DNA of 64,000 nucleotides from Owenia fusiformis. Taxonomy: Eukaryota > Annelida > Polychaeta > Sabellida > Oweniidae. Positions 6,001 through 30,000 of this stretch are shown one piece after another. A program made the position numbers and the translations under genes. The notes beneath the pieces are model-generated. The model saw nothing but the letters and a program-made list of their open reading frames with translations. It did no database searches and was not told the origin of the DNA. Each line of letters starts with the position of its first letter. Positions within the stretch are counted from its first letter, which is position 1. The DNA lies in contig CAIIXF020000006.1 in the NCBI GenBank assembly GCA_903813345.2, positions 21,709,936 to 21,773,935 on the forward strand, in the 5' to 3' direction.

Positions 6001-9000
6001 GTTTATCCTGATGTCATAATTAAAATTCTCACTAACAATACATCACTTGCTGTTATTTTCGTTTCATTTAAGTTCATCATCAGGCATGTGATCATGAGAC
6101 ATCACTCAGTAGGCATAATTTACAATTCTCTTGATATTACAAGACCACCCTATATTCTGCTAAATAAGGATTATAAGCAAATGTAAATACAGCCAGTAGC
6201 TTGGGATTCATTTTACATACAAAATGTACTGTAAGTTATTTTTATCTCACCTTACACAGGCAGATATAATTATCTTCACCTCTGCTTTGAATCAGGAACA
6301 TTGATTTTATATGAAGCTTATATTAAAAATTGTGACTTTTTCCTGATCTGTAAGCTTTACGTGGAAAAAACCGGTACGTTAATAACAGAAAAAACAAAAA
6401 AATGATTATAACTATAGTATAAATTATATCAAATTAAAAGATTTACAAACAGAATTAATATCCTAAACTTAAAAATAGCATTTGTTTACGAACACAAGTG
6501 AAATATGTAAAAGTTTCAACTAGATTATGATTTATTTCTTATTTAGTACTAAGGAAATCCATATTTTTAGGAAATTAGATGAATAATTTACTTCAGGTGT
6601 TATTAGATTATATTAATCATAAAATGGGTGAATTAGATTATATTAATCATAAAATGGTTGATATGTTCCATCTCCAAATAGTAAATAGTAAAAAATAATA
6701 GAGATTAACAATTGATTCGCAATGTTATTCAAAAAACAATGTAAGATAGTTGCACTATTTTTTAAGTAAATAAGCAACTAATTTGGGACAACACAAATGT
6801 TTTACAGCATGTTCAGAATAAGCTGGGATATAACAAGGATGAATGTACTACTTCTTACTTTATTTGGACTTCCTCATTTCTGAGAAAATGAATATGAATG
6901 CTCTCAGCCAGAGTATTTAATTAGTGTTTAGTACTAGTTACTGTTTCGTTTTCATGGAAGGATACTGCAACTTGTTTTGTTTCTTTATCTTTATAATGGC
7001 TATATAAAACATTTAGCAGTTCTGTCAAAATACATGAAATTGGTAGTTTATTTTCTGTAAATGGGGAGGGGTGAGATCACCTAAAATATCCAAAATCACT
7101 AAAAGAACATATTTTCAATAAAACTTTCTGTAAGGGTCAAGTTGGCAAAGCATCAATTTGAATCTGTAGAATCCTAGTTATCACATTGACAACAATACAA
7201 CAAATGCGTTTTTGGTTATATAACGGAATGCAGTCACATTAAATAGCATGTTCTGATTGGCTGAAATTGGACACATCTTGCCTATAGCTATGTGTGAATG
7301 GTGTTTAGTGGTCGGTGTTCAGTGGGCAGTATCTGTAATAAATGGCAAGTGGTGACATTTGTGACATTATCTGTAAAGTCATATGGCACACAAGAAAATT
7401 TGTTACAATACTATTCGTAATGTTCATCATACCTTTTTAGTACTGTTAAAGTGCCCGATAAACTATAAAATGCGCATGCGTCCAGGTGTTGATAAACTAT
7501 AAATAGCGAAAATCCAGGGTTTGTCACCACAAGGTAAGCCAGGACGTGTTGAGAGAACAGCTAGTGTTGATATTGAATTTACATGTAGCCAGATAAGTTT
7601 CCTTATTGAAATTACATATGGTTATTAGCAATACTTTGTACGTGCTAAATAATAAAATATTTAGAGTATATGAGAGAAATTGGTCATTTCGAACCTGTTG
7701 AAAAGTTTGTGGCTCTCGGCTACACCGGGGAATTTACTTCCATGAGTACACACATAAATGTGGGGTTCCCCAAGAGGTACGCGACAAGGTGACCTGGCAT
7801 CAAATGTGCAACTAAATGCTACTATCGAGAAGATAAAATAACGAATACGACAATAAGTTATTGCATGTGACAATTCCGAGCCTTCATTTCACTGAAGTAT
7901 TTTGAAGTGAAAATATGATTTTTGTTTTGATACATGGATTCAGATGAACGTAACTTTATTCTGACAACTAATCAAAACTGAACAAAATTGATTGTACGTA
8001 ACAGACAATTTATTGTTTTACAATGTTTTGATTGGCTTAACGACTGAAACCAACAAATTATGACATGTAAAATGACAATTTTGAAATGTAAAATTTAAAA
8101 GTGACAAACACAACCTCCCTATCCACTCTTTGGGAGCCCCAGCTTATTATCACACTACGCTTTGTATTCTAAAGCCTGTTGTTTGTAATAACACTGTTCA
8201 CTCAACGTATGTTTTGTGTGTGGGCAGTCAACGATAATCATTGTTTTATCCCGGTTATATGACCTCGGCAATTATAACAGAACCGTACTAAACGAAAAAA
8301 ACGCAAATAAGAGAAAGCTTTCACACACATATAAAAAATGAACTAGTCTAATCCGGCAGTATAAACTCTGTGCTATACGTAGCCGGGTCAGGCGCACACT
8401 TTAATGAAAATTGCAGATTTTTACAATGATGTATTATTTTTCTCTAAGAATCGGGTTACCATTCTTATTACTTGGGAGAATTTAAACATTTTTCCCATTT
8501 TTATGCACTTTGAATCCATTATAACTTCACCGATTTATAACATATCTTTTGGGAGATATTGTATTTGATATTGAAGGAATAGATTGGTAGGTCAATTGTA
8601 CATGTTGCTTGTAATTTTGTCACCTCCATAGATTTGATTCTATCCTTAATGTCACATTAAGGTCTCAGTTTCGGAAATACTGTGACATATTAACAAAAAT
8701 AGAATGTGTTTGCATTTATGTTATATTAGTAAAGCTACCTATAATATAAACAGTAAATCTACCTATAATAATGTACATTGTTTCTACATCCACTTGTGTT
8801 GATTTCTAAGTAAATATTACCACAAAAAAGAAAGTCAAAAAGACTGCTTTGCAGAATTGATAGGCTTTTATACAAGTGATCTGTGATTTATATGTTAAAA
8901 ATGAAAGTCAGTTAAGGACACGGTCATTGTCATTAGCACTCTTCCTTTTGATTCGCAACATTTTGCAGAATGCAATTTTAAAGTTCTTCATTCGTAAGCT

Positions 9001-12000
9001 GTAGATGATAGGGTTGATTCCAGAATTAGTAAAGCCTAGCACATATACAAGAATCCTTAGTACATGGAGATCGAGTTGAATATGTCCATATATATAAACT
9101 GCCATCTGTATGACAGGTGGCAACCAGCACATGAAAAATATTCCTAGCACCAATAAAGCTGTTTTAAGTAAGGTTAGATTTGCCTTAAGCTGGGCTTTTG
9201 GGCCTGGTTGGTGTGGATTGAGGCTTATTACCATATCTTTGAATTGATGATGAGCTACCCGAAGAATACGGGAGTATAGAATGGTAACTGTTATTGATAA
9301 GATACAAAATGCAGGTAGGTAAGAATGTGCAAAAATCACTGGAATGATTCTCATTTCATTAAACTCCATGTAGTGAGAATAAGAAGATGCCATTACGCAG
9401 TAGACTATTACGGAGATCCAAGTTACTGAGATACAGATCCTAGCACGAAAACGTGTCATTATAGCCTCATATCGGAGTGGCCATAATATTGCTATGTAAC
9501 GATCTGAAATCACCCCAAGAAGAAAGCACATCGAACAAAATATTGAACTATGGATAAATATCATCATAAATGTTTCAAGTAAACTATCAAATGTGATTTT
9601 AGCAAACACATATATTGTTAAGCATAGAGATGTAGATCCCATTAGAAAGTCTGCAATCGCTAAATTCAATATCCATAGATTTGAAACAGTTTGTAATGTT
9701 GAAAACTTTGCATATGCTACAATTACTAAACCATTCCCTGTACATATCCACGTGGCACTTAGCAGTTGCATTAGTGGTATAACAATCCTAGTTTGCAATG
9801 CTTCATTATGTGTCACAGCATCTGTTTTGTTTTGGTCCATTTTTTGATATTGATAGAATATTCCTCTGCTTGATCAGGTTGATCTTGTTTTTGGATGTGG
9901 GTCCCTGTCAATTTGTATGTCCTGAGTGTAATTTGAAACATTAAGGTATTTCTTTAAAGAATTAAGTGAGCCCACAGAATCTCAATGGCATAAACTTTTT
10001 ATGATTTAAGACAATTAAGGAAAACTTGCTAATGGGTCTCATAGGAGATCCTTTGTATTTATATCAGATGCATTAGTCACAAATGTATTTTAAATGTGTT
10101 TAACTAACCCTGAGTAACTAACTACAGGGTGTCAAATAAGTCCCGTCCCCCCCTCTACAGCCAAAACCAAGATATTTGGTACCAAGTGTGATATATCATT
10201 GGAAAGGTGTTCCAAAGTTACGTTGATTGCCACATATCTGACACATGTCAATCAATCTCACAAATTTTTACATTGTATCAATTGAGGTGACCATATGCCT
10301 AGAAACATGGCAATTTGGCTTATTTGGCAGGATTTTAAGAATCGGGTATAAGAAAGGTCAAGAGACCAAAAGATGACTAAATATGTTCATGGCGATGAAT
10401 TTAACCAATTTCTGGATAGGGTTAGATGTGTAGAAAATAGAGGTGCAAGGAAAATGGTGAAAACCTTTTTGTAACAAGTGGAATGCGAAAATGAGTAACT
10501 TTTTGACGTATTTCTGAGGTCATATCCTTGTCATTTTGACGCAAAAAAGCTACTTAAAGGAGGGCACGTTAACTATACAAGACATCATAAAAATATAGGT
10601 AAATTTCATCCAAAATACTTGAGAGTTGGTGAGTTAACATAACTTTGGATGATCTTTCCAATGGTATATCTCACTAGGTACCATCTGTTATGGTTTTAGC
10701 TGTAGCAGGGGGGACGGGACTTATTTGACACCCTGTAATTGCTCGAATGTTTGATTTGTTTCTAATGGAGTCTATATTTATCCCAACGAACGAAGTTCGG
10801 TAGGGATATAGTGAAGCTCTCTGTCAGTCTGTCAGTCTGTCAGTCAGTCTGTCCATCTGGAAGATAACTTGAATATTAGTTGACAGATTTTCTTCATATT
10901 TGTTGGAAAGATGTATATTGGTGAATAGTTTTATGCAAACATTTATTTGAGATGGTTGCCGTTTTAAAAATGGTGGAAATTTTTCACAAATATCTTCTGT
11001 TTTTCATTTCAAACCAAAATAATAATATTATTATTTGAAATGTTGGTAGTAATTATTCTTCCCCATCTATTGACCCCCATGGGCTGTGAATGGGGTCTGG
11101 AAAAATAAGATAGCTTTATTATACTCAAATGAAAGGCAATTTAGAGTAGATTGCAAATATTGTATCGTTTTTTTCTGATTCGGGCCTCATAAAATTCAAA
11201 ATGGTCGCCTCATGTGGGATTTTTTGGCAATTATTTTCTGATCTCTTAAAAGTATGGCTTTATTATACTCAAATTGAAAGAAGTTTAGAGTAGATCACAA
11301 TTATGGTATTGTTTTTCTGATTTGTGCCTTAGGGAATTCAAAATGGCTGCCTAGAGCTGGAATTTGCCATTACTTCGATACTACAATGATCTCAAATATA
11401 TATAGAAGGGAAGAGTAGATGGTAAATATTACATTGTGACCGTACAGATTCATGATTTATATAGTGTTTGTTGCTACTCTACTCCGTGGAGTTGCCAATT
11501 TCTAGTTAATGCTTAGTAATACATTATTGTATTCAAATGTGATGGCATTTATGTCTGGGACCTTAGATCCCAACTAACTGTGGACTTTAAAAGCTCTCAT
11601 TTAAATAAATCAATACACTCTGATTAATTGATTGCAAATAACATGTATAATTAATTTTATATATTTTTTGATCTGATATCAAGAACTTCTATTTCAAAAA
11701 ATTGTCCAATGAAACATTTGCATTATATATTACATGTAGGGTATTTAATTATGCTTTATTCAGAGCAATATTAATATTTGTCAGTCAGTAAGGGTAATCG
11801 GAAAGTTCAGAATAAGTCCATACCTTGGAGTATTTAGATTTTGACTTTTGACTACTCAGTGTTATTACGCCCAGGACATACTATCCTATAAGCTGAATAA
11901 TCATTATTGCAATTAGGATGCATACAGCAGATTAACTAGCTATACAATGTAGCTCTTCATTCAGGTTGCAGGGGAGTGTAAAGTCTAGCTTATTCATATC

Positions 12001-15000
12001 TCTCCATGAAATAATCCTGTTTCCAAAGCATTTCAATGCTCAAATGATTTTCAAAGAGAAGTTTTTGTTGTGTCTAAACTGAACCATGTACACTTACTGC
12101 TTTTGTTCTGTGTTCAGAAATGAGAGCCTAATACTTTAATTTGAAATACTCTCAATGAATCTATAAAAGAGTCCATGTTTTACTGTGTTAAATAGTTGAT
12201 CAGTAATATTGTATAATTATCATCTTTTATACTGTCATATTGTTAGATTCATATATTTTCCTACATTGGATAATCTCAAACCTCAAATATCCACCTAAGC
12301 AAATGAAACCCATATCATAATTCAAATCCATTTTTACAGATGATGCGTAATGGGTGCCTCACATTGTGCCACTTTAAGATTCCCCAAGATGTGGTAAGTT
12401 TGCACTTTTCTCTACCGGTTTGCCTCCATCGTGTATTACTCCATCGTGTATTACTCCATGTGTAATAGCCAGGCAGCTCTTGTTTGAAGAAAACTCTTTA
12501 TTAGGGATTTCAGGGTTAAATGTGGAAAATGTTTTATCTCAGGCCCATAGCCAGCTTTTGCCAAGGGGCTTTACTTTTTAAAAAATCCAAGGGGGTTTAC
12601 AATTGACCATTTTGGCACAACATCACTTGAAAAGTGCTCAGAATGGTGAAAAACTGCTGATTTTTGAAAGATATTTTGGCCAGGGGGGTTCCTTGGCATC
12701 ATTGGGATATAGGGAACGCCTCCGTCCATCTCATCATGATGCGTAATGGGTGCCTCACATTGTGCCACTTTAAGATTCCCCAAGATGTGGTAAGTTTGCA
12801 CTTTTCTCTACCGGTTTGCCTCCATCGTGTATTACTCCATCGTGTATTACTCATTACTTGGAATGATAAATATAGAAGATAATGATAGACTACACACACG
12901 ACTTAAAATTACTCTGGAGGACAGAATCCAATCAAAACTTAGGAAAAACAATGAACTAAAGACCAAGAATAGGAAAAAGAAACCAACAAAATTCTGTAAA
13001 ATACTATTTGAAAACAAAGCAGTAGAAGTAATCAACATTGCAAATATCTTAAGAGATGAAGAAGTGATCAAGACAATACCTTCAAGTATCAAAAATAAGG
13101 AACCACCAGGAATTGTCTATATATACACAAAACCAATAAGGAATAAATTGTTCAACTATAGTGAGATTACAGAAAGTATCGACGAAGGCAACAATACAGG
13201 AGAATGTGATTGTAATACATCTGAATTTAAGGATGAAGACCATGGTCACGTCATAACAGGAAATCTGAAGATTATACAAAATTCAAAATTGAGAAAGCTA
13301 TTTAGTAAAGGTCCTGGCTATAGAGAAAAACGAAACATTAACTTCAGGAAAGCAAAAGAAGAAATAAAGAAAGGAATAGATGAATATGCAATAAGTTGGA
13401 CAAAAAATGAAAAAGTTTCAAAAGTATACTTAAATGAATGGAAAAATACTGTAATGGAAAAGGTTAAACAAAAGATTGAGTTACTTCAAAATACAAAATT
13501 TAGACATATTAAAAATCCAAAGCAGACACTAAAGGACCATAATGCTATGGAAGAACTCAATCAACTCAAGGAAAAATATGCTATTGTACCTATTGATAAG
13601 GCAGCAAATAATATTGGGTTTATGTGCAAACAATACTACATAAAGAAGATTAAAGAGGAAATTGGGAGTGACACCTATCAAAGGATAGAAGATAAAGGAG
13701 AAGAAGATATAGTGGAGGAAATCAAAGAGACAATGAAAACAAAATTCAAGATTGAACCGGGAGAAGAACAAAATATTATACCAAGGATTCATCTTACAAT
13801 TAAAATGCATAAACAGCCAATTAAATTTAGATATATCATTGGCTCAAAGAAAAGTTCTGTAAAACCAGCTGCCAAAAAACTGACCAAAATTCTTAAACTA
13901 GTGCAATATACTAACAAAAGATACTGTGAGAAGATTAAGGATTATACAGGTGCCAATAGGATGTGGATCAGTGACAATAACCAAAATATGTTAGATAACA
14001 TTAAAAGTGTAAATTTAAGGAACGGGGCAAGAAACATAGCCTCGTATGATTTCTCTACACTATACACAAAGATTAATCTAACTGACATAAAGGAAAAACT
14101 GAAATGGGTGATAGATAAAGCCTTCAGAGGAGGAACTAACCAAAAGATAACAGTAGGTGGAGATGAAGCCAAATGGGGTGGAAAGGCGGATAATAAAAAG
14201 GCATATACCAAAGGAGAGTGCAATGATCTAGTGGATTTCATCGTGGATACAGCCTACTTTAAAGCAGGGAAATCAATTCTAAGACAGGAAATTGGAATAC
14301 CGATGGGAATCGATCCGGCGCCATATATGGCAAACCTATACTTATACAGTTATGAATTTCAAGCCATTGAGAAAATGTATAGGGAAGACTACTCCAAAGT
14401 ACTAAAATATGCTAAAACTACAAGATTCATCGATGATTTATGTACTATAAACAACGACGGAGAAATGGAGACTGATATGAAGAACATCTATCCTGAAGAA
14501 CTAGTGTTAAACAAGGAAAATGAGAAGGATACAGAAACAACTTTTCTGGACATACAAATGAAAATAGTAAATAAACAAATCACTACAAAACTACGACAAA
14601 AGGGAAAACTTCAATTTCCAAATAGTCTCATATCCTGATCTATCTGGAAATATTCCTAGAAACCAATCTTATGGAATATTTATATCACAAATAATAAGGA
14701 TTTCAAGAATCTGCAGTCAACTGGAAGATGCAACAAACAGAGTTACCAGCCTGGGAAATAAACTACAATGTCAAGGCTACAGGAGCAACATACTAAATTC
14801 GTATACTAAGAAAGCTATAACAAGAAATAAATGGATATGTACTAAATACAATATGCAGGAGAATATCATCATGAAGGACTGGAAAATTAATGAGAGAAGA
14901 GAACATTAACAAATGAATATGAAACAGTATCTTCTCCGCAAAGAGGGTAAACTAAGATGACAAATTAGCATAAGACCAACAGTAAGGGGAAGGGGAGAGT

Positions 15001-18000
15001 TTTCCGGCCGGATCAAAACGTTTAACCCACCTATGCGCAGTCTCAAGTCTGTGGACCCTGAAGAAAGATAAGTAACATCGCAATCAAATCAAGACAAAGA
15101 AAGAAGAAAATGAATGAAGAAACCAATGCAGCAACAACAAATGACATCCGTCCATCTGTCTGTCCGGGCAATAACTCAAATACCATTGGCCTGATTTTGT
15201 TCATACTTTGTTAACATATACCCTATGAGAGTAGAAGTTCTGCTCGACAGCCGATTTTCAAAATGGCCGCTCATTCAAAATGGCGGCCATTTTAGTGCCG
15301 TTTTTACAGTAATTTAGGTACAATATGTAAAACTGTAATAGCAATATGTTTGAAATGTAAAAAATTATAGAGGACATTGATAAAGCTAGAAATGTAGATA
15401 TTAAAGAAGCACATGGCAGCCATCTTGAAAAATGGAGGCCTTTCTTGCTATTTTACGATTTTTGCTGTTGTATTGTATATTATTTACCTCTAATCACTAG
15501 AGAGTTACTCAAAAAGTAGTGGAGCGATTTTGTTCATATTTTGTATGTGAATACTACATGTATAAGCATGAATACATATAAGCATGGCACACTGTCTAAT
15601 GACACTTTTGGTAGAAGGTGGCCATTTTGAAAAATGTCTGTCATTTTTGCTATATACTTTGTTTGTAAAAATGCCATCTATGGCTGTTCGATGGGATTTG
15701 CTACGCTTTGGCATTGCTGTTGTCTTGTTAAATTTTGAATCATCAAAATATTTGTAAAACAGATACATAATTTCATAAGAACATGATTTTCTATTGCAGA
15801 TATATGAATATCCAAGAGTGATCAAAGTCCTACTGAACATGATATCTCCCCCAGACCAAGAGGAGTTTGTGCAGAGAATTGGTGAGTTTGTTATTTCCCT
15901 CCCATTTGAAATTATGGTAGGGGAAAATATATCTAACTGAATATATCCTACTGAACATGATCTCTCCCCCAGACCAAGAGGAGTTTGTGCAGAGAATTGG
16001 TGAGTTTCTTATTGACCTCCCATTTGAAATTATGGTTGGGGAAAATATATCTAACTGAATATATCCTACTGAACATGATCTCTCCCCCAGACCAAGAGGA
16101 GTTTGTGCAGAGAATTGGTGAGTTTCTTATTGACCTCCCATTTGAAATTATGGTTGGGGAAAATATATCTAACTGAATATATCCTACTGAACATGATCTC
16201 TCCCCCAGACCAAGAGGAGTTTGTGCAGAGAATTGGTGAGTTTCTTATTGACCTCCCATTTGAAATTATGGTTGGGGAAAATATATCTAACTGAATATAT
16301 CCTACTGAACATGATCTCTCCCCCAGACCAAGAGGAGTTTGTGCAGAGAATTGGTGAGTTTCTTATTTCCCTCCCATTTGAAATTATGGTAAGGGAAAAT
16401 ATATCTAACCAAATATATCCTACTGAACATGATCTCTCCCCCAGACCAAGAGGAGTTTGTGCAGAGAATTGGTGAGTTTGTTATTTCCCTCCCATTTGAA
16501 ATTATGGTAAGGGAAAATATATCTAACCAAATATATCCTACTGAACATGATCTCTTCCCCAGACCAAGAGGAGTTTGTGCAGAGAATTGGTGAGTTTCTT
16601 ATTTCCCTCCCATTTGAAATTATGGTAAGGGAAAATATATCTAAGCCTTTTTTCGCTAGCTGTTATTGAACTACATACTTGCAAGTCAGACTGTCGACTG
16701 TTTCAAAATGATGGAACTTGGAACATGGTTTTGCCTTTCATTTACATGTTCTAACTGGTAATCCAATAGCAATGTACAAAATAATTAGTTAGAACATTGA
16801 TGAGCACATTTATTTGCATAAAAAAAAATGTTTTAGCGATAGTTTTATATCTGTGGCACATAGTTCACCAGTGTGAATTGTCAATGTAATGAATTGAGGG
16901 AACACTTAATCACAGAATTTGATGATCATGGGGGTTCAGTTTAGTCATTGAGATAAGTTAGTCCAACTTTAGATTTTCTGCAGACTAAAATAATTCCATC
17001 TCAGTTTTCAGTTTTGGATTACAATTTTAACAATGAACCTCTTGTTGGGTCTGAGTTATAGTGTATTGATATTTCTGCTTATAATATTTATTATTTCAGG
17101 TATTCACCTGTTGAACAGCTTAGCCTGCCAGGTGGATGGTAAAGAGAAGCAGTTGGTTGGGGACTATGGTGCAATAGAGGTATGTACAAGAGGCTATGGT
17201 TGCACTAATAAGCATCTATTTCTATTTCCTACAGTAGATTACTTGAAAAGAGACAGAGAAATATGCCTCTATATGAGCTATGGTGCAATAGAGGTATGCA
17301 CAAGAGGCTATGGTTGCACTAATAAGCATCTATGTCTATTTTGTACAATAGATTACTTGAAAAGAGACAGAGAAATATGCCTCAATATGAGCTATGGTGC
17401 AATAGAGGTATGTACAAGAGGCTATGGTTGCACTAATAAGCATCTATGTCTATTTCGTACAATAGATTACTTGAAAAGAGACAGAGAAATATGCCTCAAT
17501 ATGAGCTATGGTGCAATAGAGGTATGTACAAGAGGCTATGGTTGCACTAATAAGCATCTATGTCTATTTCGTACAATAGATTACTTGAAAAGAGACAGAG
17601 AATTATGCCTCAATATGAGCTATGGTGCAATAGAGGTATGCACAAGAGGCTATGGTTGCACTAATAAGCATCTATGTCTTTTTCGTACAATAGATTACTT
17701 GAAAAGAGACAGAGAAATATGCCTCAATATGAGCTATGGTGCAATAGAGGTATGTACAAGAGGCTATGGTTGCACTAATAAGCATCTATGTCTATTTCGT
17801 ACAATAGATTACTTGAAAAGAGACAGAGAAATATGCCTCAATATGAGCTATGGTGCAATAGAGGTATGTACAAGAGGCTATGGTTGCACTAATAAGCATC
17901 TATGTCTAGTATTATTACACATCCCACCTCTCAATTATATGCCTTAGATTCCTTTAGCAATCTCTGTATGGAGTCCTAACACCCCTCTGGTTTTACTGAT

Positions 18001-21000
18001 GACATTAACTTGGACGCGTCCACTATTGAATAAAGTAGTTTGTACACGTGCCAACTTCCTCAATTTCCCCATACATTAGTGCAATCAACACGCCGTTTTT
18101 GTTTGAAACAAAAATTTTATATGGAGAACAACAAGTCGTCAGTTGTAAAGGATATCAACCTTAATTATCCCATCGAACGAAGTTCGGAGGGATATAGGGA
18201 ACGCCTCCCTCCGTCCGTCCGTCCGTACGTACGTCCGTCCGTACGTACGTCCGTCCGTACGTACGTCCGTCCGTCCGTCTGTCCGTCCGTCCGGGCAATA
18301 ACTCAAATACCGTTGGCCCGATTTTGTTCATATTTTGTACACATATACCCTATGGGGGTAGAAGTTCTGCTCGAAAGCCGATTTTCAAAATGGCCGCTCA
18401 TTTCAAAATGGCGGCCATTTTAGTGCCGATTTTTCAGTAATTTTAGGTACAATATGTAAAACTGTAATAGCAATATGTTTTAAGTGTAAAAAAATTATAA
18501 AGGACATTAATAAAGCTACAAATGTAGATACATGTATTAAAAAAGCACATGGCAGCCATCTTGAAAAATGGCAGCCTTTACTCGTTATTTTACGATTTTT
18601 GCTGTAACTCGAAAAGTAGTTGAGCGATTTTGTTCATATTTGGTATGTGAATACTATAAACATTGCACACTGTCTAAAGACACTTTTGGTAGAAGGCGGC
18701 CATTTTAAAAAATGGCCGCCATTTTAATGTATTTTACTATAACTCGAAAAGTAGTGGAGCGATTTTGTTCATATTTGGTATGTGAATACTATAAGCATGG
18801 CACAATGTCCTATGACACTTTTGGTAGAAGGCGGCCATTTTGGAAAAAAATTTGAAAAATGGCCGCCATTTTAACATATTTTACTATAAGGTATGAGGTT
18901 CCATATCCATCCGCCAAAAGGTATGACCCCTATATAGTCCATTTAAAAACCTGTGGTATTGTTCTAAATAACGCCATAGTTGGCTTCTAGGGTACCTAGT
19001 ATGCCACTATTTGGTATCAAAATGAAGAGGAGGAGTTCAACTTTCATTTGAATTACGAAAATAGCGATGTATGTCAAAAATAGTTCCGACGTGAGCATGT
19101 CTACTACGCGTTTGCTCGTCATATCAGAATTGAGGAAGTGGTGGCAAACGCGAGTTACAATAAATGGACGCTGATATCTCAAAAAGTAACCTGACTCCCT
19201 ATAATATGATGTAGATCAATCGAACCCCTATATGAACAGGTACATTTTGATATATAACACTATGGGGGGTAAGCGTTTTATAGTTGGTCACGAACGCCAT
19301 ATGTGCAAAGTATTGTTATGAATTTTCGAATTTGGTGTTGGATTACGGTACTCATACCTTAATATGAGGCCTAAAATTGTCTGCTAGTTGGCCAGAGACC
19401 AATATTCCAGCAGAATTTGAGGATAGAAGCGATTTTTTTCATTCTGCTTAGGGCAAACAATGATTTGAAATCACTTTCAACCATTCTGTGAGTATAAGAA
19501 TGGTCATAAGAGGCCCGTGGAGGGTCACGAATGAAAGAAAGCCCTCTGAAATTCCGTCAAAATTGCAGGTTATTTCTTCATTTTTTGCTAAAATTGCATG
19601 ATTTTCAGGGCCCATATCTCAGTAAAATTGCTACAATGTAGCAATTTTTCATTTTTACAGGCTAGATACACGTGTCAGGTCGACAGAAACAGTAAGCATG
19701 TATGATTTTTAAATTGCTACATTGTAGCAATATTTATTTCAAAATACAGGTGTGAGGGAAACTGCAATTTAGTTAGATTTGGGCGAAAATGGCCAAATTT
19801 CAGTCAAAATCCTCGGGACACAGGGCCTTTGTCTTAGATTTAGTCAATGATGCAACTCTTAGTAGAAGGTGTGCCATATAGGGAATGAAAGCTGTTTGTC
19901 AGACGTATCATTTTCTTCAATAAACTCGGAGATAGTCAGGTTAGATTTGTGACGTCACAGTGGCAAAGTTAGACTAGCATATTTAGACGTATTTGGGGTA
20001 GGGCAAATTAACCCTTTCTAGCCTAAATGGATAAATTTTTCACATATTCAGCCAATTTCGACGTTTTTTTTGCATTTTTGAACTAAAAATGATATTTTCC
20101 GCCAAAAAAAGTTGCAGAGACAAAAATCAGTGTGATGTCATAAGACATTAAGGTATGAGGTTCCATATCCATCCGCCAAAAGGTATGACCCCTATATAGT
20201 CCATTTAAAAACCTGTAGTATTGTTCTAAATAACGCCATAGTTGGCTTCTAGGGTACCTAGTATGCCACTATTTGGTATCAAAATGAAGAGGAGGAGTTC
20301 AACTTTCATTTGAATTACGAAAATAGCGATGTATGTCAAAAATAGTTCCGACGTGAGCATGTCTACTACGCGTTTGCTCGTCATATCAGAATTGAGGAAG
20401 TGGTGGCAAACGCGAGTTACAATAAATGGACGCTGATATCTCAAAAAGTAACCTGACTCCCTATAATATGATGTAGATCAATCGAACCCCTATATGAACA
20501 GGTACATTTTGATATATAACACTATGGGGGGTAAGCGTTTTATAGTTGGTCACGAACGCCATATGTGCAAAGTATTGTTATGAATTTTCGAATTTGGTGT
20601 TGGATTACGGTACTCATACCATAACTCGAAAAGTAGTGGAGCGATTTTGTTCATATTTGGTATGTGAATACTATAAGCATGGCATACTGTCCTATGACAC
20701 TTTTGGTAGAAGGTGGCCATTTTGAAAAATGGCCGCCATTTTAACGTATTTTACTATAACTCGAAAAGTAGGGAAGCACTTTTGTTCATATTTGGTATGT
20801 GAATACTATAAGCATGGCACATTGTCCTATGACACTTTTGGTAGAAGGCGGCCATTTTGAAAAAATTTTGAAAAATGGAAGTACATGTGTGCGATTTTTC
20901 AAAAATTTTATAGGTGGCTACTAAAAGCATATTATTTCTTCTGTTGACAACTTGGCTAACCATTTTGAAAATGATGGCCTTTCTGGTGTGTTGTTTTATG

Positions 21001-24000
21001 ATATTTGCTATATATTTCGTTTGTAAAAATGCCAGCCATTTCTGTTCGATGGGATTCGCTACGCTTTGGCGTTGCCGTTGTTCTGGTTCAACAATGAACT
21101 ACAATGTCAATGAACAACTGGAAGATGGACAAATTCCTGACTTTTCAAGTCAACTTCAAAGGGATAGTTCGAATTTGCTGCAAGGGAACATTTTCTCTGG
21201 CGAGGAAAATCCAACTCCGGGTAGCATGCCATCCCACACCATCACCAGCGGCATAGACATTGACAACAACATCAACAGTGACTTCATGAATCGTGGGCTC
21301 ATTCCACCAGGAAATGAGGGGCATGATATGAACTCACAAGGGAAGGACTTGACTTGCCAGTCAAATTTCAACCCTATTTTGGATACTCGTGATTCTGGGC
21401 TCACCTCCCTACCCGGGACTGAGGTGCAGGACACATCCAACTTTCAACATCAGCACCCTACAACAGGGAGAGACTTCATACAGTCTAATAGTCTGAATTC
21501 AATAGGATTCAGAGCAACAAACACTTTACCATCTAAGAGGTTTTCAAAATCTCAACAACAACAACACTCCGAACTGCGGACCTATCAAAATCAACAACCA
21601 GGGCTAGCCTCAAGTATATCGCCAGATATGGTCCAAGATATTATCAAAGGACTGACTCCAACTCTTGAATTGCTCGTAGCAAACAAACAACTTGACGTTG
21701 AACTTCTAGGTGAAACAACCAACAGAAGCAGGTCCGCTAAAAGAAGGGAGGTACAAAGAGCGAAAAAGCGAACTGTTTCGCCGTCTAGTCTACAGTATGT
21801 TTCCCCGGACCGGGCATCTAGCCCCAAACGGGCAAGAAGTGATCATCCCTACAGTGAAGTGGACTCGCCCGTGACCTCTCCTGCGCACATGCGCCGTGAC
21901 AGCAATAACCCGGAAGACTCGGATTCTTCCAATTCCGACAACGATCATGACTTAATTTGTTGGAAGAACTGTGTTAAACTAATTAAAAATGCCTTTCCGA
22001 GTCATTTTAAAACAACTACAGACTATAACACAGAAACACAAACGGAAAATAGACCGCTAGGACTTCAAACTTTGGGTAAGAAATCTACTTCTTCAGACAC
22101 AACAAAAGGCTTACCGATCGGGCCTTCAGTGCTACAGAATTTCGCCAACATTAACCAGGAATTAGCCAACAAGAAAAACATGAATGACACTAACTTCCTG
22201 TTAAGACCAAAACGATCGTTCACGTCCCTCAAAGAAGATGAACACTTCTATAAAAAATCCATTTTGAATGGGACAACTAAGGAACTTGTTCCACATTCCA
22301 TGAAACTATCAGATTTGGCTTCAACTTCTTACCAGCTTCCAGCCAAACATCACAAACTGTTGGAAGAATCAGCGAGAGCTCCTCTTCGTCATCTGTCTCA
22401 CACTGAATGGATTCTAGGGACAACAGGGAAAATCATTGCGGAGAATTTCCCTGAAAATGAGGATCTCGTCAATCTTATTACAACAGCTTCAACTATGGTA
22501 AATAAAGCTACAAGGGACACCATATCAAATGTCACAAACGTCATACTGACTCAAAGGGACAGGGTAAGCTCCAAGTTCAGGAAGTCAGACGCTGAAGCCC
22601 TTAGGAATCTCCCCATCGACACCAAATTTTTATTTCCTGAAGAGGATTTAAAAAATATCTGTGAAGGGTCGGATAAATCTAAAACCTCAAAAGCGCTACA
22701 AGATTTAGCTTCAAACTGGAAAAATCGAAAACAGAATTATGATAAATCCAGTAATAACAACTCCACCAGAAGTAGTAATCAACATTCCAACTTTAACAGG
22801 AACAACTTCAACAACAACAACAACAACAACAGAAACAATAACAGAAACAACAACAGAGGAAACTTCTCTGACCGTTCTACTTCTACAAAATCCAACAACA
22901 ATAACAACAAATCAGGCTTTAAGAAGCGTAAATGACACTTCAATAACATCAATGTCCCAGCCCCGCCTCCCCCCGTTCTCACCTATGTCCCAGCTGGGAC
23001 CAGTGGGAGGCAGGATTCAACTACACTTAAAAAACTGGGAACTCATCACAAAGGACCAATGGATTTTAAATGTGATAAAACATGGCTACATGCCACAACT
23101 AGTGAACAATCCACCTTTGACAAAAAACTTCAACAACTTCGAATCGGCATCAAAAACAAAAGCTCTACTGCTTCAAAACATAGTAGATCTCCTAATTCAA
23201 AAACAAGCTGTGGAGGAAACAGACTACAACATACCGGGCCACTACAGCATCATATTCTTACGTCAAAAGCCAAACGGAGATTACAGACCCATAATAGACC
23301 TGTCTCTCCTCAACAAACACATAATATGCCCAAAGTTCAAAATGGAAACTTCAGCCAAAATATCAAACTCTCTACAAAAGGGCGAATGGGCCACATCCAT
23401 CGATTATCGGGATGCTTACTACCATATACCGATAGCCAAACCATTCAGGAAGTTTCTTCGCTTCGTGATCAACAACAAAGTGTACCAATTCAAAACACTT
23501 CCATTCGGAATGTCAACCAGCCCTTATGTTTTCACAAGAGTGACATTAGCAATCGGTGCCTTCCTACACTTCCAAGGGATATTAACACACCAATATCTCG
23601 ACGATTGGCTAATACGAGCCCCATCTGCACAACAGTGCCAAATATGGACACAAACAGTACTATCAGTGACGGAAAAACTCGGTTTTTTGATCAACAGAGA
23701 AAAATCCGAACTGATCCCAACACAGATTTTCAAGTACATAGGCACCCAATACAACCTAATACTAGGCCTAACATATCCTCCGCAAGACAGGATCCAGAAA
23801 ATCTTAGAAATCGCACTATTATTCACCAATACCCTTTCTCAACCAACAAGGCAGTGGATGAAACTACTAGGCCTACTAGCCTCAGCAGAGAAAAATATAC
23901 CCTGGGGCAGACTATACATGAGACCAATTCAACAGTGCCTAGCCAGCCAGATGTCTCCTACAAAATCACTAGAGACACCAATCTACATCAACCAAGAAGT

Positions 24001-27000
24001 AATAAACACACTGAAATGGTGGATGGACGAGCAGAATCTACTCATGGGTCAACCTCTGGGAATGTTTGTCCCAGATCACACAATCTTCACGGATGCATCG
24101 GAGACTATGTGGGGTGCACACATGGACTCTGTGGAAATCAATGGATTCTGGTCCCCATCGGAAATGAGAAACCACATCAACTGGCTAGAACTAGCGGCAG
24201 TATTGAAAGTTCTACACAAACTGAACCATCTACTGGTACCTCAAGCAAACATTCTAGTTTGCCTGGACAACACAACAGCCCTAAGCTACATAAACAAACA
24301 AGGCGGGACAAAATCGAAAAGTCTTCTGACCCTAAGCCAGGAAATCCTAATCTGGTGCAAAAACCACCAAATAAACATAAGAGCTCAACATATAGCAGGA
24401 TCCCTAAACCGACGGGCAGACGCACTATCTCGGGACAGGATAGTGAACACAGAATGGTCTCTACTCCCACAAATAGTGAAACGACTGTGGCAAATATGGG
24501 AGACTCCTCAGTTAGATTTGATGGCGACATGTCACAACAACAAATTACCACTATATGTATCCCCAGTACCAGACCAAAACAGCTGGGGAACAGACGCAAT
24601 GTCAATCCCGTGGGACAATCTCAACTTCTACATATTCCCACCAACAAGCATGATCGACAAAGTTCTAACAAAAATGAGAACACACAATTGCGAAGCCATA
24701 ATGATAGCTCCAAAATGGCCAAATCAACCTTGGTTCACGCAAATTCTGGAACTTCTAACGGACTACCCAAGAACGCTTCCAGTGTCTCAAAAACTACTAA
24801 AAATGCCAAAGACAAGCATGTTTCACCAGACTCCGGAAATATTTGCCCTTCACGCCTGCAAATTGTCAACGACACCCTCAAAAAACAAGGCTTTTCTACA
24901 GAAGTGTCTCTTCGAATCTCAGAATCATCAAGGAGGAAATCCACAAATAAACTCTATGATTCCAGGTGGAACACCTTCACTGTTTGGTGTTATGAACGGA
25001 ATTCAGATCCATGCCAAACAGATATTCCTCTAGTGGCAGAGTTTCTACTATATCTTCACCAGACTAAGAAACTTTCAATTCCTACCATTGAAGGATACAG
25101 AACTGCCATTAATACAGTACTGAAAAAATCATCTGATATCGACCTGACTGATAATTCCCTCATAGGCGATCTTATCAGATCTTTTAAACTGGAAAACCTG
25201 ACACCAAGGAACATGGTACCTAAATGGAATCTTGTATTTGTTCTTAATGCTTTATCCAAAGCACCCTTCGAACCTATGGCCACAGCGGAACTTAAATTCA
25301 CATCATGGAAAACACTCTTTCTTTTACTCATGGCTTCAGGGAAGAGAAGAAGCGATATACATGCACTCGACTTCAGACGTTTAAAATGGTCAGAATCCAG
25401 GGACCAAGTAACTATGTATCCCTTCATAGGATTTCTACCAAAGTCACTATCAGCTGCAGAAGGAGAATCTCGCTTTCAACCAATCCTCATTAAAGCTCTC
25501 ACCACACTGGTGAATAGAGACTCTCCAGACAGGACACTTTGCCCCCTCAGAGCTCTACGTTACTACCTTCAAGCCACAGTCTCAACAAGGGGCAACCGAA
25601 ATAGACTGTTTATACCATACAAAGCCGGATATACTGGAGATATACACGTAAACACTATATCTTCTTGGGTGAAAAATCTGATCTTGTATACTTACAAAAA
25701 TTCACAAGAAACAGATTACCAAATCAACTCTATTAAAACCCACGAAACCAGGGCCTTATCTGCAAGCCTTGCTGTTCAAGCAAATCTGTCAGTTACTGCA
25801 GTTCTCAAAGCCTGCTCATGGGCAAATCACAACACATTCACCAGCTTCTACCTACGAGATACATCAGTGATCGAGGGAGAACTGCGGAAATTAGGCCCTA
25901 TGATGGTTGCAGGCTCACTATACAACATATAGCATCTTCAACAGCCTTGTGGTGAGTCATCATCATTAAACATTCTTATGATTTTATAATGTAAATTATT
26001 TAGAATGTTCTACTTGTTGGTTTGTGGGTCCCTCTGGTTTAACTGAATTCACCCACCTCCTTTTCGGCTACATTCAGGCATATAATTGAGAGGTGGGATG
26101 TGTAATAATACTGGGAAAATCCTTTTTTAATTGATTTTCCTGTTTATAAACATACCCACCTCTCAATTACCAAAGTCCCACCCGACCTCCCCACTATTCA
26201 TTAGGGGGAATAGGGAAATTGAGGACGTTGGCACGTGTACAAACTACTTTATTCAATAGTGGACGCGTCCAAGTTAATGTCATCAGTAAAACCAGAGGGG
26301 TGTTAGGACTCCATACAGAGATTGCTAAAGGAATCTAAGGCATATAATTGAGAGGTGGGTATGTTTATAAACAGGAAAATCAATTAAAAAAGGATTTTCC
26401 CATTTCGTATGGTAGATTACTTGAAAAGAGACAGAGAAATATGCCTCAATATGAGCTATGGTGCAATAGAGGTATGTACAAGAGGCTATGGTTGCACTAA
26501 TAAGCATCTATGTCTTTTTCGTATGGTAGATTACTTGAATAGAGACAGAGAAATATGCCTCAATATGAGCTATGGTGCAATAGAGGTATGTACAAGAGGC
26601 TATGGTTGCACTAATAAGCATCTATGTCTTTTTCGTATGGTAGATTACTTGAATAGAGACAGAGAAATATGCCTCAATATGAGCTATGGTGCAATAGAGG
26701 TATGTACAAGAGGCTATGGTTGCACTAATAAGCATCTATGTCTATTTCGTATGGTAGATTACTTGAAAAGAGACAGAGAAATATGCCTCAACATGAGCTA
26801 TGGTGCAATAGAGGTGTGTGCAAGAGGCCATGTGTGTCCTAGGGGCCTCCTAGCATGTTAATATATCACTACAGTGTATAATAAAAATCATATGCAATGC
26901 TGTTTACAAACCCTCAAGACTGCTCACATTTCAGCTTGTTAATAATAAGCAGCTGATAAGGTAGCTCAGTTACAAACTTGACAAAATCTTATTTTTTTCT

Positions 27001-30000
27001 GGTTTGTTTAAGAACTGTTTTGGCCTATATAAGCATGTCTGTGTTTCATTGTACAAAGGACTACTTGGAAAGAGACAGAGAACTGCATGTATATGTATGC
27101 CTCGAAAGGGTTGTAGATTCAAATGAGGATCCAATAATCTTAATTTTATTATTACGGACTAAGTTTGATTGAGATATAGTGAAGTCCTCTGTTCAACTGT
27201 CTCCATCCATCTGTATGTTTATCCCAAAAATAACTCAAATACTATCTACTAGTATCTAGTAAACAAGTTTTCTTCATATTTGATGGAAAGATGATTAACT
27301 GGTCTTTATATATAATACGGCAAAATGCCGACAAATCAAATTCTTGCTTTAGTGAACACCTACCAACATTTGACGTTTTTTCTAAGCAAAATAATTTTGA
27401 CAAATTGTAAATATTTTTGAAGATGGCCTCAGCTTTTAAAATGGTTCATTCATAAGCTGCATGATTATATTCCAGACAATGTTAGAGACTGTGAGAAACA
27501 GACTAAGACAGAACATCTGTGATGAGGTGATGGAAATAGCATGGAGTACAATGTGGAATGTAACTGATGAGACGGCTATCAACTGCGAACGTTTCATTGC
27601 AGACAAAGGCTTGGATCTCTTTCTGCAGTGCCTCGAGGTAATCTTATTTCTTTCAAGCTTAGGAAATACTTAAGCAAATTAGGGTACAATTTACAACTTT
27701 GGCAAATTCATAGGGGTTAAATAGCGTACATTTTACAACTTGAATTTTGCTGATTGACTTAATTTTAATAACCATTTTGATTATAAACGTCTTAACATTT
27801 TAGCTTCTTTTTATTTTCTAGACTTTTCCTGAGAAGCCAGAGCTATTGAGGAACATGATGGGGTTAATGGTAAGTTCATCACTGTCAATCAGCAGATTAT
27901 TTGGACAGTGTACAATAAGGCCTTACAACAATTTACTTAGACCTTTACAGGGCCATGGCCTTAAAGCTTAGAAACTTTATATGGTTTGAGGTGGCCCAGG
28001 ACCATATTTTCTAGTACACTGATTTGTACCCTGAATTTAACATGTACAATTTGAAACAATTTGCTTGTGGCAAATGTGGTAAATATTATTTTTTTCTGTG
28101 AAGTAAATAAATATCAAGCATTTTCATTATCAAGTGTTAAATACTTTACGAGACCCATTTAGGGATAAATCCCTCTAAACAATATTGTCTTGATCATCAA
28201 GTGTATTTAGTCTTAACCACCATCTGGACCATTTCTCTGGATTTGAAATGTGGCCTGTTGGGTTGGTAATGTTAAGTTAATATTCTACTACTCCCCTCCA
28301 GACACTAGGGAAAGGTCAATTTATGTGTTAACAGATGTCAGAGGAATCTCTAAGTATAAATGTGAATATTTGTAGGGTAATGTAGCAGAGGTCCCATACC
28401 TTAGAAAGTATCTCATCACCCCACAGTACATCTCAGTATTCAGGTAAGAAAGGGACTGTCCCCATGTCATATGTTCTACACATTATTGCTTTCAATTTTA
28501 TAGGTTAACTGAATACAGGTATCTAAAAAATCTAGCCGTATCTCCTAAAACTGTCATGTGTTTCTTTCTGAACATTGAACACCTATCATAAAACACAAAA
28601 TCAGAAAACTACAATAATTAAACTTGTCTATTTTAATCTTATAGTGAGTTACTGATGTCAAAAAGTGACGGCATTGAAGTCAGTTACAATGCTGCAGGGG
28701 TGCTATCCCATATTGCATCTGATGGCCCTAAAGTCTGGACAATATCCTCACCAACTCGTAAAGAAGTTCTACAGAATCTCTCAACAGCAATTGAAAAATG
28801 GGACTTAGATACTAAGAGGAATATCAATTACAGGTGGGAAATGTTGTTGAAATCTTTCAAAAATGAGAAAAACGATTTAGTAATACTATTAAAACAACAA
28901 ATATTAGGAAATCACGAATATCTATGAAACAGTATCACCCAAAACAGATCATGCCTATTGTTAGGTCCAAATGATTTATGTTTAGAGTAATGACATATTC
29001 AAATGCATCTGCTGAATTGTCATGAAGTTTTTAAAATGCTCACTATTTGAAGTGAAATATTCAGCCATTTGAACCACTGCTTAATTTACTCAAGATGTAC
29101 AGTACCGGTTAACAAAACATGAATGCAAATTTAACTTTTTTCCCTGACCTAATATGGTTAAGTTATGTTGCTATTTCAGGTCATTTGCGCCAATCTTAAG
29201 ACTCCTTCCAATCCATGAGACTCCTGAGGTTCAACACTGGGCAATATGGGCATTGTGCAATCTAACAAGAGTATATCGTAAGTATAGGTACAACACTGGG
29301 CAATATGGGCATTATGCAATCTAACAAGAGTATATACAGTAGGTACAACACTGGGCAATATGGGCATTGTGCAATCTAACAAGAGTATATCGTAAGTATA
29401 GGTACAACACTGGGCATTGTGCAATCTAACAAGAGTATATAGGTACAACACTGGGCAATATGGGCATTGTGCAATCTAACAAGATAATATTGTAAGTATA
29501 GGTACAACTCTGGGCAATATGGGGATTTTGTTATCTAACAAGAATATATTGTAAGTATAGGTACAACTCTGGGCAATATGGGCATTTTGTTATCTAACAA
29601 GAGTATATCGTAAGTATATTTCCTTTTTAAAAAACATCCTGCTTATGCGTTCTTGTAATAGGTTATTACTAAAATATTAATGTACTATACTATATTATGA
29701 AAAAGAAACCAAACCTGAATACAAGTATTAGATGGTGAAAGCATTATAACACTATTCAGAGCCTGACCGTTACAGTATTTAATATTGTATTAAGGAGTAT
29801 ACAATCTTCATTTGCAGCTAACAAATATTGTCAACTGTTGGTCAATGAGAATGGTATTGAACTTATAGAACAAGTTGCTTTAGACCAACGACCATACCCA
29901 CGGATACGTGAATTGTCATCAATGGTTTTAGAGTGTTGTCGAAATTGGAAGATAGGTGGCGCCAGAGATGATAATGATATTAGGGACGATAATGACCCAA

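Follow-up and report, generated by a model that had tools for sequence, protein, structure and literature searches.

Exon-edge tandem arrays in a ZER1-like gene and at a sample of conserved loci in the annelid Owenia fusiformis

The ZER1-like gene and its arrays

The window, which here means the whole 64,000-nucleotide stretch of Owenia fusiformis DNA that was analysed, opens with a gene whose fifteen exons seen there, the outermost at 1-388 and 29818-30017, give a single open frame of 660 residues when joined; the first exon is cut by the start of the window, and the start of the second was set at 1668. The joined protein matches the ZER1-like C-terminal domain (PF22964, 3.1e-155) and the Zer-1 leucine-rich repeats (PF25013, 1e-30) of Pfam, and its residues 398-639 align to the solved armadillo structures of a zer-1 homolog (E 1.2e-84). 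The order of ZER1-type leucine-rich repeats and then a ZER1-like armadillo domain is that of the ZER1 / ZYG11 receptors, and on its sequence the gene is predicted to be a ZER1 relative, a ubiquitin-ligase substrate receptor, which is also the identity given to it in a preliminary description of this DNA. No processed gene copy that would display the spliced form was seen, as ten out of ten listed protein matches lie at the gene's own locus. For ZER1 itself, a search covering part of the literature gave one paper, on HPV E7, and nothing on this subject.

The eighth exon seen in the window, exon H (15800-15881, forward strand), is 82 nt long and ends in phase 1, as set by its AG|...|GT borders and the uninterrupted joined frame. 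It codes for IYEYPRVIKVLLNMISPPDQEEFVQRI+G, residues 353-379 of the joined protein, and the PF22964 match spans the protein; its acceptor partner, fixed by borders and frame in the same way, is exon I (17100-17179, forward strand). The end of exon H lies inside a tandem array, in which repeat finding identifies seven units at an exact spacing of 118 bp over 15828-16644, with unit starts at 15828, 15946, 16064, 16182, 16300, 16418 and 16536. For this array TRF gives a period of 118, 6.9 copies, 97% matches and no indels. The unit is composed of a 54 nt exon part (15828-15881) and a 64 nt intron part, such that the first unit (15828-15945) holds the real exon end and the six further units (15946-16644, forward strand, also found by self-comparison) are intronic, the last of them being 109 nt long with 109 of the 118 nt matched. 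The claim that the last 54 nt of the exon and 64 nt of intron recur seven times at 118 bp is therefore upheld by both the unit alignment and TRF. When the 498-Mb assembly was searched with one unit the seven matches obtained all lay at this locus and, as far as a search reaches whose tool warns that copies can be missed, the array occupies a single place in the assembly.

Differences among the units are partly private and partly shared, and their pattern is ordered; units 2-4 are identical to each other, and 7 of the 109 shared columns vary. The variable columns are alike in the exon-derived and intron-derived parts (2/54 vs 5/55, p 0.44), which speaks against the special design that had been suggested for the array, and constraint on the 27-nt unit plus donor described below is not significant (0/33 variable columns vs 7/76 elsewhere, p 0.10). 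The suggestion had drawn on one base change, said to lengthen the pyrimidine run in every intronic copy. All six downstream copies do read GATCTCTC where exon H reads GATATCTC; a small correction is that the seventh unit reads CTCTTCCCCAG and not CTCTCCCCCAG. The difference is one of ATA and ATC, a synonymous one, and because both codons specify Ile the base change may lie in exon H rather than in the copies. Its polarity is a matter for an outgroup, and the six copies, belonging to one lineage, do not count as six independent changes; since the difference is unpolarised and the copies arose from one another, selection cannot be read from the longer pyrimidine run.

Three other exons of the gene, those at 12340, 17100 and 29180, likewise have their 3' end and donor copied downstream. 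The array of exon I, located by repeat finding, joins the last 16 nt of the exon to 98 nt of intron in a 114 bp unit, with about 6.5 units at 17164-17908 and a continuation of 3.8 units, confirmed by self-comparison, at 26403-26832 beyond an inserted element. A further array at 29227-29618, again from repeat finding, is built on the tail and donor of exon 29180-29277 as a 59-bp unit in about seven irregular copies. At exon G, self-comparison shows that the 117 bp of 12340-12456, which comprise the whole 54-nt exon, its donor and 63 nt of intron, have an exact copy (100%) at 12736-12852 that lacks an acceptor; these features all lie on the forward strand.

Several other elements accompany these arrays. 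The insertion that splits the exon I array is about 8.5 kb long (17909-26402), and the stretch 17916-18072 recurs inverted at 26210-26367 with 97% identity. It has an open frame at 22709-25033 that matches RVT_1 (1.5e-22) and a second frame at 22936-25932 with no Pfam match at 0.001; by eye the element resembles a DIRS-type retroelement. The exon I array is itself open in the exon frame throughout (16994-17947), at 38 codons per unit, so that its retention would add 38-residue repeats, a weak observation given that it is one open unit repeated. Beyond this array, within 26800-27110, a diverged stretch is like part of the 114-bp unit (17322-17374 vs 27029-27082, 81%), and the unit may have lost about 200 bp of original intron before multiplying. 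A 614-aa open frame (12794-14638) begins in the second exon G copy and has no Pfam match at 0.001, although by eye it looks like a Penelope-type reverse transcriptase. Finally, the intron before exon G holds, on the opposite strand, a single-exon rhodopsin-type GPCR (8908-9873, minus strand; PF00001, 6.9e-32).

Latent 27-nt units and their splice signals

What could the splicing machinery find within the copies? In all seven units the distance from the AG of CCCAG to GTGAGT is 27 nt, and six stretches of 91 nt each separate the successive 27-nt units. These stretches are potential introns that would run from GTGAGT to CCCCCAG (TCCCCAG in the last), combining an inherited donor with a cryptic acceptor in former exon sequence. 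Read from these sites on the forward strand, the latent AG...GT units lie at 15973-15999 in copy 2, 16091-16117 in copy 3, 16209-16235 in copy 4, 16327-16353 in copy 5, 16445-16471 in copy 6 and 16563-16589 in copy 7, and in length and frame preservation they fall within the size of a microexon (at most 27 nt). Exon H, n units and exon I join in frame, with DQEEFVQRI added per unit, for each n that was tried (0, 1, 2 and 6). The measured distances and joined frames thus agree with the preliminary description on the 27-nt length, the phase of 1 and the nine residues per copy. The predicted junction if a copy were spliced in is AATTG joined to ACCAAGAGG; read-through past the first exon H donor meets a stop after 19 further codons.

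The same description suggested that the copies, added to the armadillo domain, could give the receptor a splicing-tunable number of repeats. Nine residues make about two and a half helix turns and an armadillo repeat has about 42 residues, such that DQEEFVQRI is far too short for its copies to add armadillo repeats. The nonapeptide aligns, with one gap, to EDQNMQRM of the zyg-11 homolog B in 9bid, and the residues that match the solved zer-1 armadillo structures lie further downstream.

The splice signals of the copies were scored with weight matrices trained on the introns of the gene itself, with leave-one-out scoring of the true sites; since the matrices penalise C-rich tracts and rest on 14 introns only they are rough, and rank rather than predict. 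The true acceptors of the gene score from -4.0 to 16.8, with 12 of the 14 at 2.7 or above and two lower (-4.0 and -3.5). The copy acceptors score 1.0 in five copies, where 12 of the 14 true acceptors outscore them, and 2.8 in the seventh, where 11 do; the same site inside exon H scores -1.2 and exon H's own acceptor 11.9. Two of the 14 true acceptors do worse than the copies, so a low score is compatible with use of a site. The shared GTGAGT donor is unchanged in each copy and its score of 4.7 is the fourth lowest of 14, which places it among the gene's weaker donors and makes competition from the identical downstream donors conceivable. Intron site pairs that are at least as good, at 15-250 nt apart, number 99 in 24.7 kb outside the arrays. 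If a yTnAy motif is also required, with an unobstructed approach to the AG, 18 pairs remain in 24.3 kb, and 6 of these have a length divisible by three; this rule is a poor discriminator, because only 6 of the gene's 14 true acceptors satisfy it.

A branch-like CTAAC motif stands 36 nt before each copy AG with no AG between. The final C is present in the six units that have a following unit, and the last unit reads CTAAGCC, from which it follows that the duplication junction completed the motif. A UGC element just upstream of the exon is the rule for SRRM4-dependent microexons; no TGC occurs in the 45 nt that end with each copy AG. The 91-nt inter-copy stretches are shorter than all 14 introns of the gene in the window, the shortest of which has 184 nt. 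In mutually exclusive exon arrays of the Dscam or muscle myosin type every copy forms a complete exon and has an acceptor comparable to constitutive ones. The copies here are without the exon H acceptor and without the exon's first 28 nt, and their latent acceptors (1.0-2.8 vs 11.9) are not comparable to that of the exon.

Frame preservation was compared between arrays. In the exon I unit examined, the latent AG...GT units with 58 nt or more of intron left over have lengths of 56, 43, 41, 37, 35, 16 and 2 nt, none of them a multiple of three, and no frame-preserving one leaves an intron of over 33 nt. Latent introns reach at most 53 nt in the unit examined of the 59-bp array and at most 41 nt in a 61-bp kinesin array from elsewhere in the genome (L053, below). 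Of the four arrays examined, only that of exon H combines a frame-preserving unit with an intron longer than 53 nt; in so small a set, one such case is no surprise.

Local repeats and exon edges across the genome

The setting of these arrays was gauged from two samples of loci, 56 from searches with the myosin, chaperonin and kinesin families (sample 1) and 22 DEAD helicase loci (sample 2), which represent chosen conserved domains and not random genes. Repeat regions were taken as direct repeats of at least 40 bp and at least 80% identity no more than 1 kb apart; the exon pieces are HMM matches rather than annotated exons, with an overlap margin of 10 bp. Of 296 listed matches sample 1 used the 98 that were assigned to its 56 loci, a set in which some members overlap or are truncated by a locus end, and sample 2 used 27 of 52. 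Pooled over the 78 loci there are 50 local direct-repeat regions covering 18,884 of 240,017 bp (7.9%), or about one per 4.8 kb. Sample 1 contributes 36 of these, and nine of them touch nine of the 98 exon pieces, four on the donor side and five on the acceptor side. The 14 regions of sample 2 touch none of its 27 pieces; a near miss at C4:26579621-26579806 lies 11 bp from a match, outside the margin, and was not counted.

Nine exon-touching regions compare with an average of 17.4 under random placement, and nine or fewer were reached in 0.65% of 2000 trials, where the null placed arrays over all 70 merged spans and allowed them to overlap one another. With exon overlaps at about half of the random expectation, arrays look purged near exons rather than favoured there: they are common but less frequent at exons, a distribution that tolerance, and not attraction, would be expected to give. 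Within 1-30100 of the window the same rule yields nine repeat regions, four of which overlap an exon. The ZER1-like gene thus has 4/15 exons hit, against 9/125 in the pooled sample (p 0.035) and 9/98 in sample 1 (p 0.07), an excess that is limited by the gene having been picked for its arrays. A targeting of arrays to exon 3' ends was considered and rejected, given the four donor-side against five acceptor-side cases, the 0/27 of sample 2 and an overall count below random.

All nine exon-touching repeats, read by eye in gene orientation, include the exon border. On the donor side a chaperonin exon tail with its donor is present twice at 154 bp (L035), and at a myosin exon (L018) a 34-bp unit starts practically at the donor. 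On the acceptor side the start of another chaperonin exon (L040) recurs at 83 or 89 bp in nine copies. The exon-edge copies of L034 and L041 are decayed. Two larger arrays fall outside the counted matches or loci and are absent from the 9/125, namely a kinesin exon tail and donor of 61 bp in at least 14 copies on the donor side, where the locus begins inside the array (L053), and a C2 kinesin exon that, together with its acceptor, is present in 18 copies at exactly 159 bp (L065, G000:C2:23266100-23269900).

Further observations were made at these loci. Unspliced copies of the C2 kinesin exon run into a stop after NKPVAL, and on its downstream side the last copy ends differently. The short array at the L018 myosin exon (G000:C4:17297164-17297299) has a unit that extends from one ACAG|GTAGGGG to its next occurrence, and each junction between units thereby forms an AG|GT proto-splice site directly at a real donor. 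In L041 (G000:C11:141614-142089) the intron that follows a chaperonin exon contains numerous decayed repeats of the exon's tail and donor, and this is an older version of the same type of exon-edge array. At G000:C9:37986009-37994334 (minus strand) there are twelve matches to myosin head positions 18-84, with starts 0.3-1.9 kb apart, that look like a cluster of alternative muscle-myosin exons.

Origin of the arrays and their possible use

Taken alone, the exon H array adds one case to the known boundary-crossing tandem repeats, with a unit of adjoining exon and intron sequence and a potential intron that has one inherited and one cryptic site. A 2007 PNAS paper reportedly, by its title, presents tandem arrays as a source of alternatively spliced introns. 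In human genes internal tandem repeats occur at exon-intron boundaries (De Grassi and Ciccarelli 2009, PMC2812944) and, in the portion of that study covered here, they too are border-crossing minisatellite expansions whose copies are kept in the exon or removed as intron, with units of 62-126 bp in part of table 2. In potato RdRp a new intron is reported as detected that came from a tandem duplication crossing an intron-exon boundary, with one site inherited and the other cryptic in ex-exon sequence; it is, from the covered part of the account (PMC4974935), a mirror image of the exon H copies, since the potato intron has an inherited acceptor and a cryptic donor, and the copies have an inherited donor and a candidate cryptic acceptor. 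The same text states that proven cases are scarce, and some novel Drosophila introns are put down to tandem duplication in the portion consulted of PMC2891723. Among annelids, the part seen of a study of earthworm metallothionein (PMC12783039) describes exon duplications and intronic minisatellites, the duplicated fourth exon being reported as absent from the final transcript. Animal microexons, which according to abstracts have upper limits of 27, 30 or 51 nt and are often neuronal, are like the latent units in length and frame preservation. In these sources the human repeats are recent primate duplicates with transcript evidence, the earthworm gene has its transcript status reported, and microexons are regulated and transcript-backed; the exon H units, in contrast, are identical copies of a neighbouring exon's tail seen in genomic DNA, in a single gene of a conserved family and a genome with many arrays.

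The most probable explanation, and one we hold with reasonable confidence, is that a widespread minisatellite-forming process produced the arrays, that splicing uses the first donor and discards the copies together with the intron, and that what is seen at exon edges are tolerated leftovers. The array would have started when the border between exon H and its intron was duplicated in tandem, and unequal exchange or replication slippage would then have expanded it to a minisatellite of seven units. The strong acceptor at 15800 and the exon's own donor at 15881 would set the limits of exon H, with the six copies removed as intron; such an array would be tolerated because an exon-to-intron duplication leaves the first exon copy intact. 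We infer both this mutational mechanism and the normal use of the first donor. Against such an outcome stands the fact that the copies keep the donor, a CTAAC at a usable distance and the frame, and their occasional inclusion is plausible. Leaky splicing, in which copies are sometimes spliced in or act as decoy sites that slow intron removal, with no regulation or benefit, is a good deal less likely though worth entertaining. Inclusion of one unit would then give a nine-residue insertion, and retention of the first intron segment would lead to the stop and probably to decay. Seven identical donors, frame-preserving units and the branch-like motif upstream of each copy AG fit with leakage, as does the finding that human boundary repeats, in the covered part of the study, generate alternative introns (PMC2812944); the weak, C-rich copy acceptors, the inter-copy introns shorter than any other of the gene in the window and the lack of a significant sequence sign of selection argue against it.

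It is very improbable that tissue- or stage-specific factors include a variable number of the units to tune the length of the receptor. The correct phase, the identical coding units and the longer pyrimidine run common to all six copies had made this attractive, but the absence of a UGC element up to each copy AG, the location of the insertion upstream of the armadillo-aligned stretch, where it does not form a repeat unit, and the failure of the three sister arrays examined to keep frame with a workable intron all weigh against it. Regulated microexons have a slight chance, and nothing in the sequence calls for them. Of the earlier reading, the identity of the gene, the phase and the coding potential hold; the weak acceptors, the unpolarised synonymous change and the similar arrays elsewhere speak against a special design. 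That the array is an assembly artefact, with a wrong number of units or made by read mis-assembly, is scarcely credible, for although the identity of copies 2-4 makes a read-based copy number uncertain, the ordered pattern of differences and the similar arrays at many places in the genome speak against mis-assembly.

Were copies spliced in variably under control, for which we see only the faintest chance, the animal would make ZER1 with 0 to 6 extra DQEEFVQRI before the C-terminal armadillo region, and exon-edge arrays would be a standing supply of optional exons. It is the setting that may matter more, with a local repeat region about every 4.8 kb of sampled gene sequence and nine of 125 exon pieces touched at an edge, each having its donor or acceptor within the repeat. 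If the sampled rate holds genome-wide, this one animal would carry very many natural splice-site duplications, in all frames. How often a duplicated boundary yields a used intron is a question usually argued from few cases, and RNA from the same species could count how often such a boundary gives rise to a used intron or microexon.
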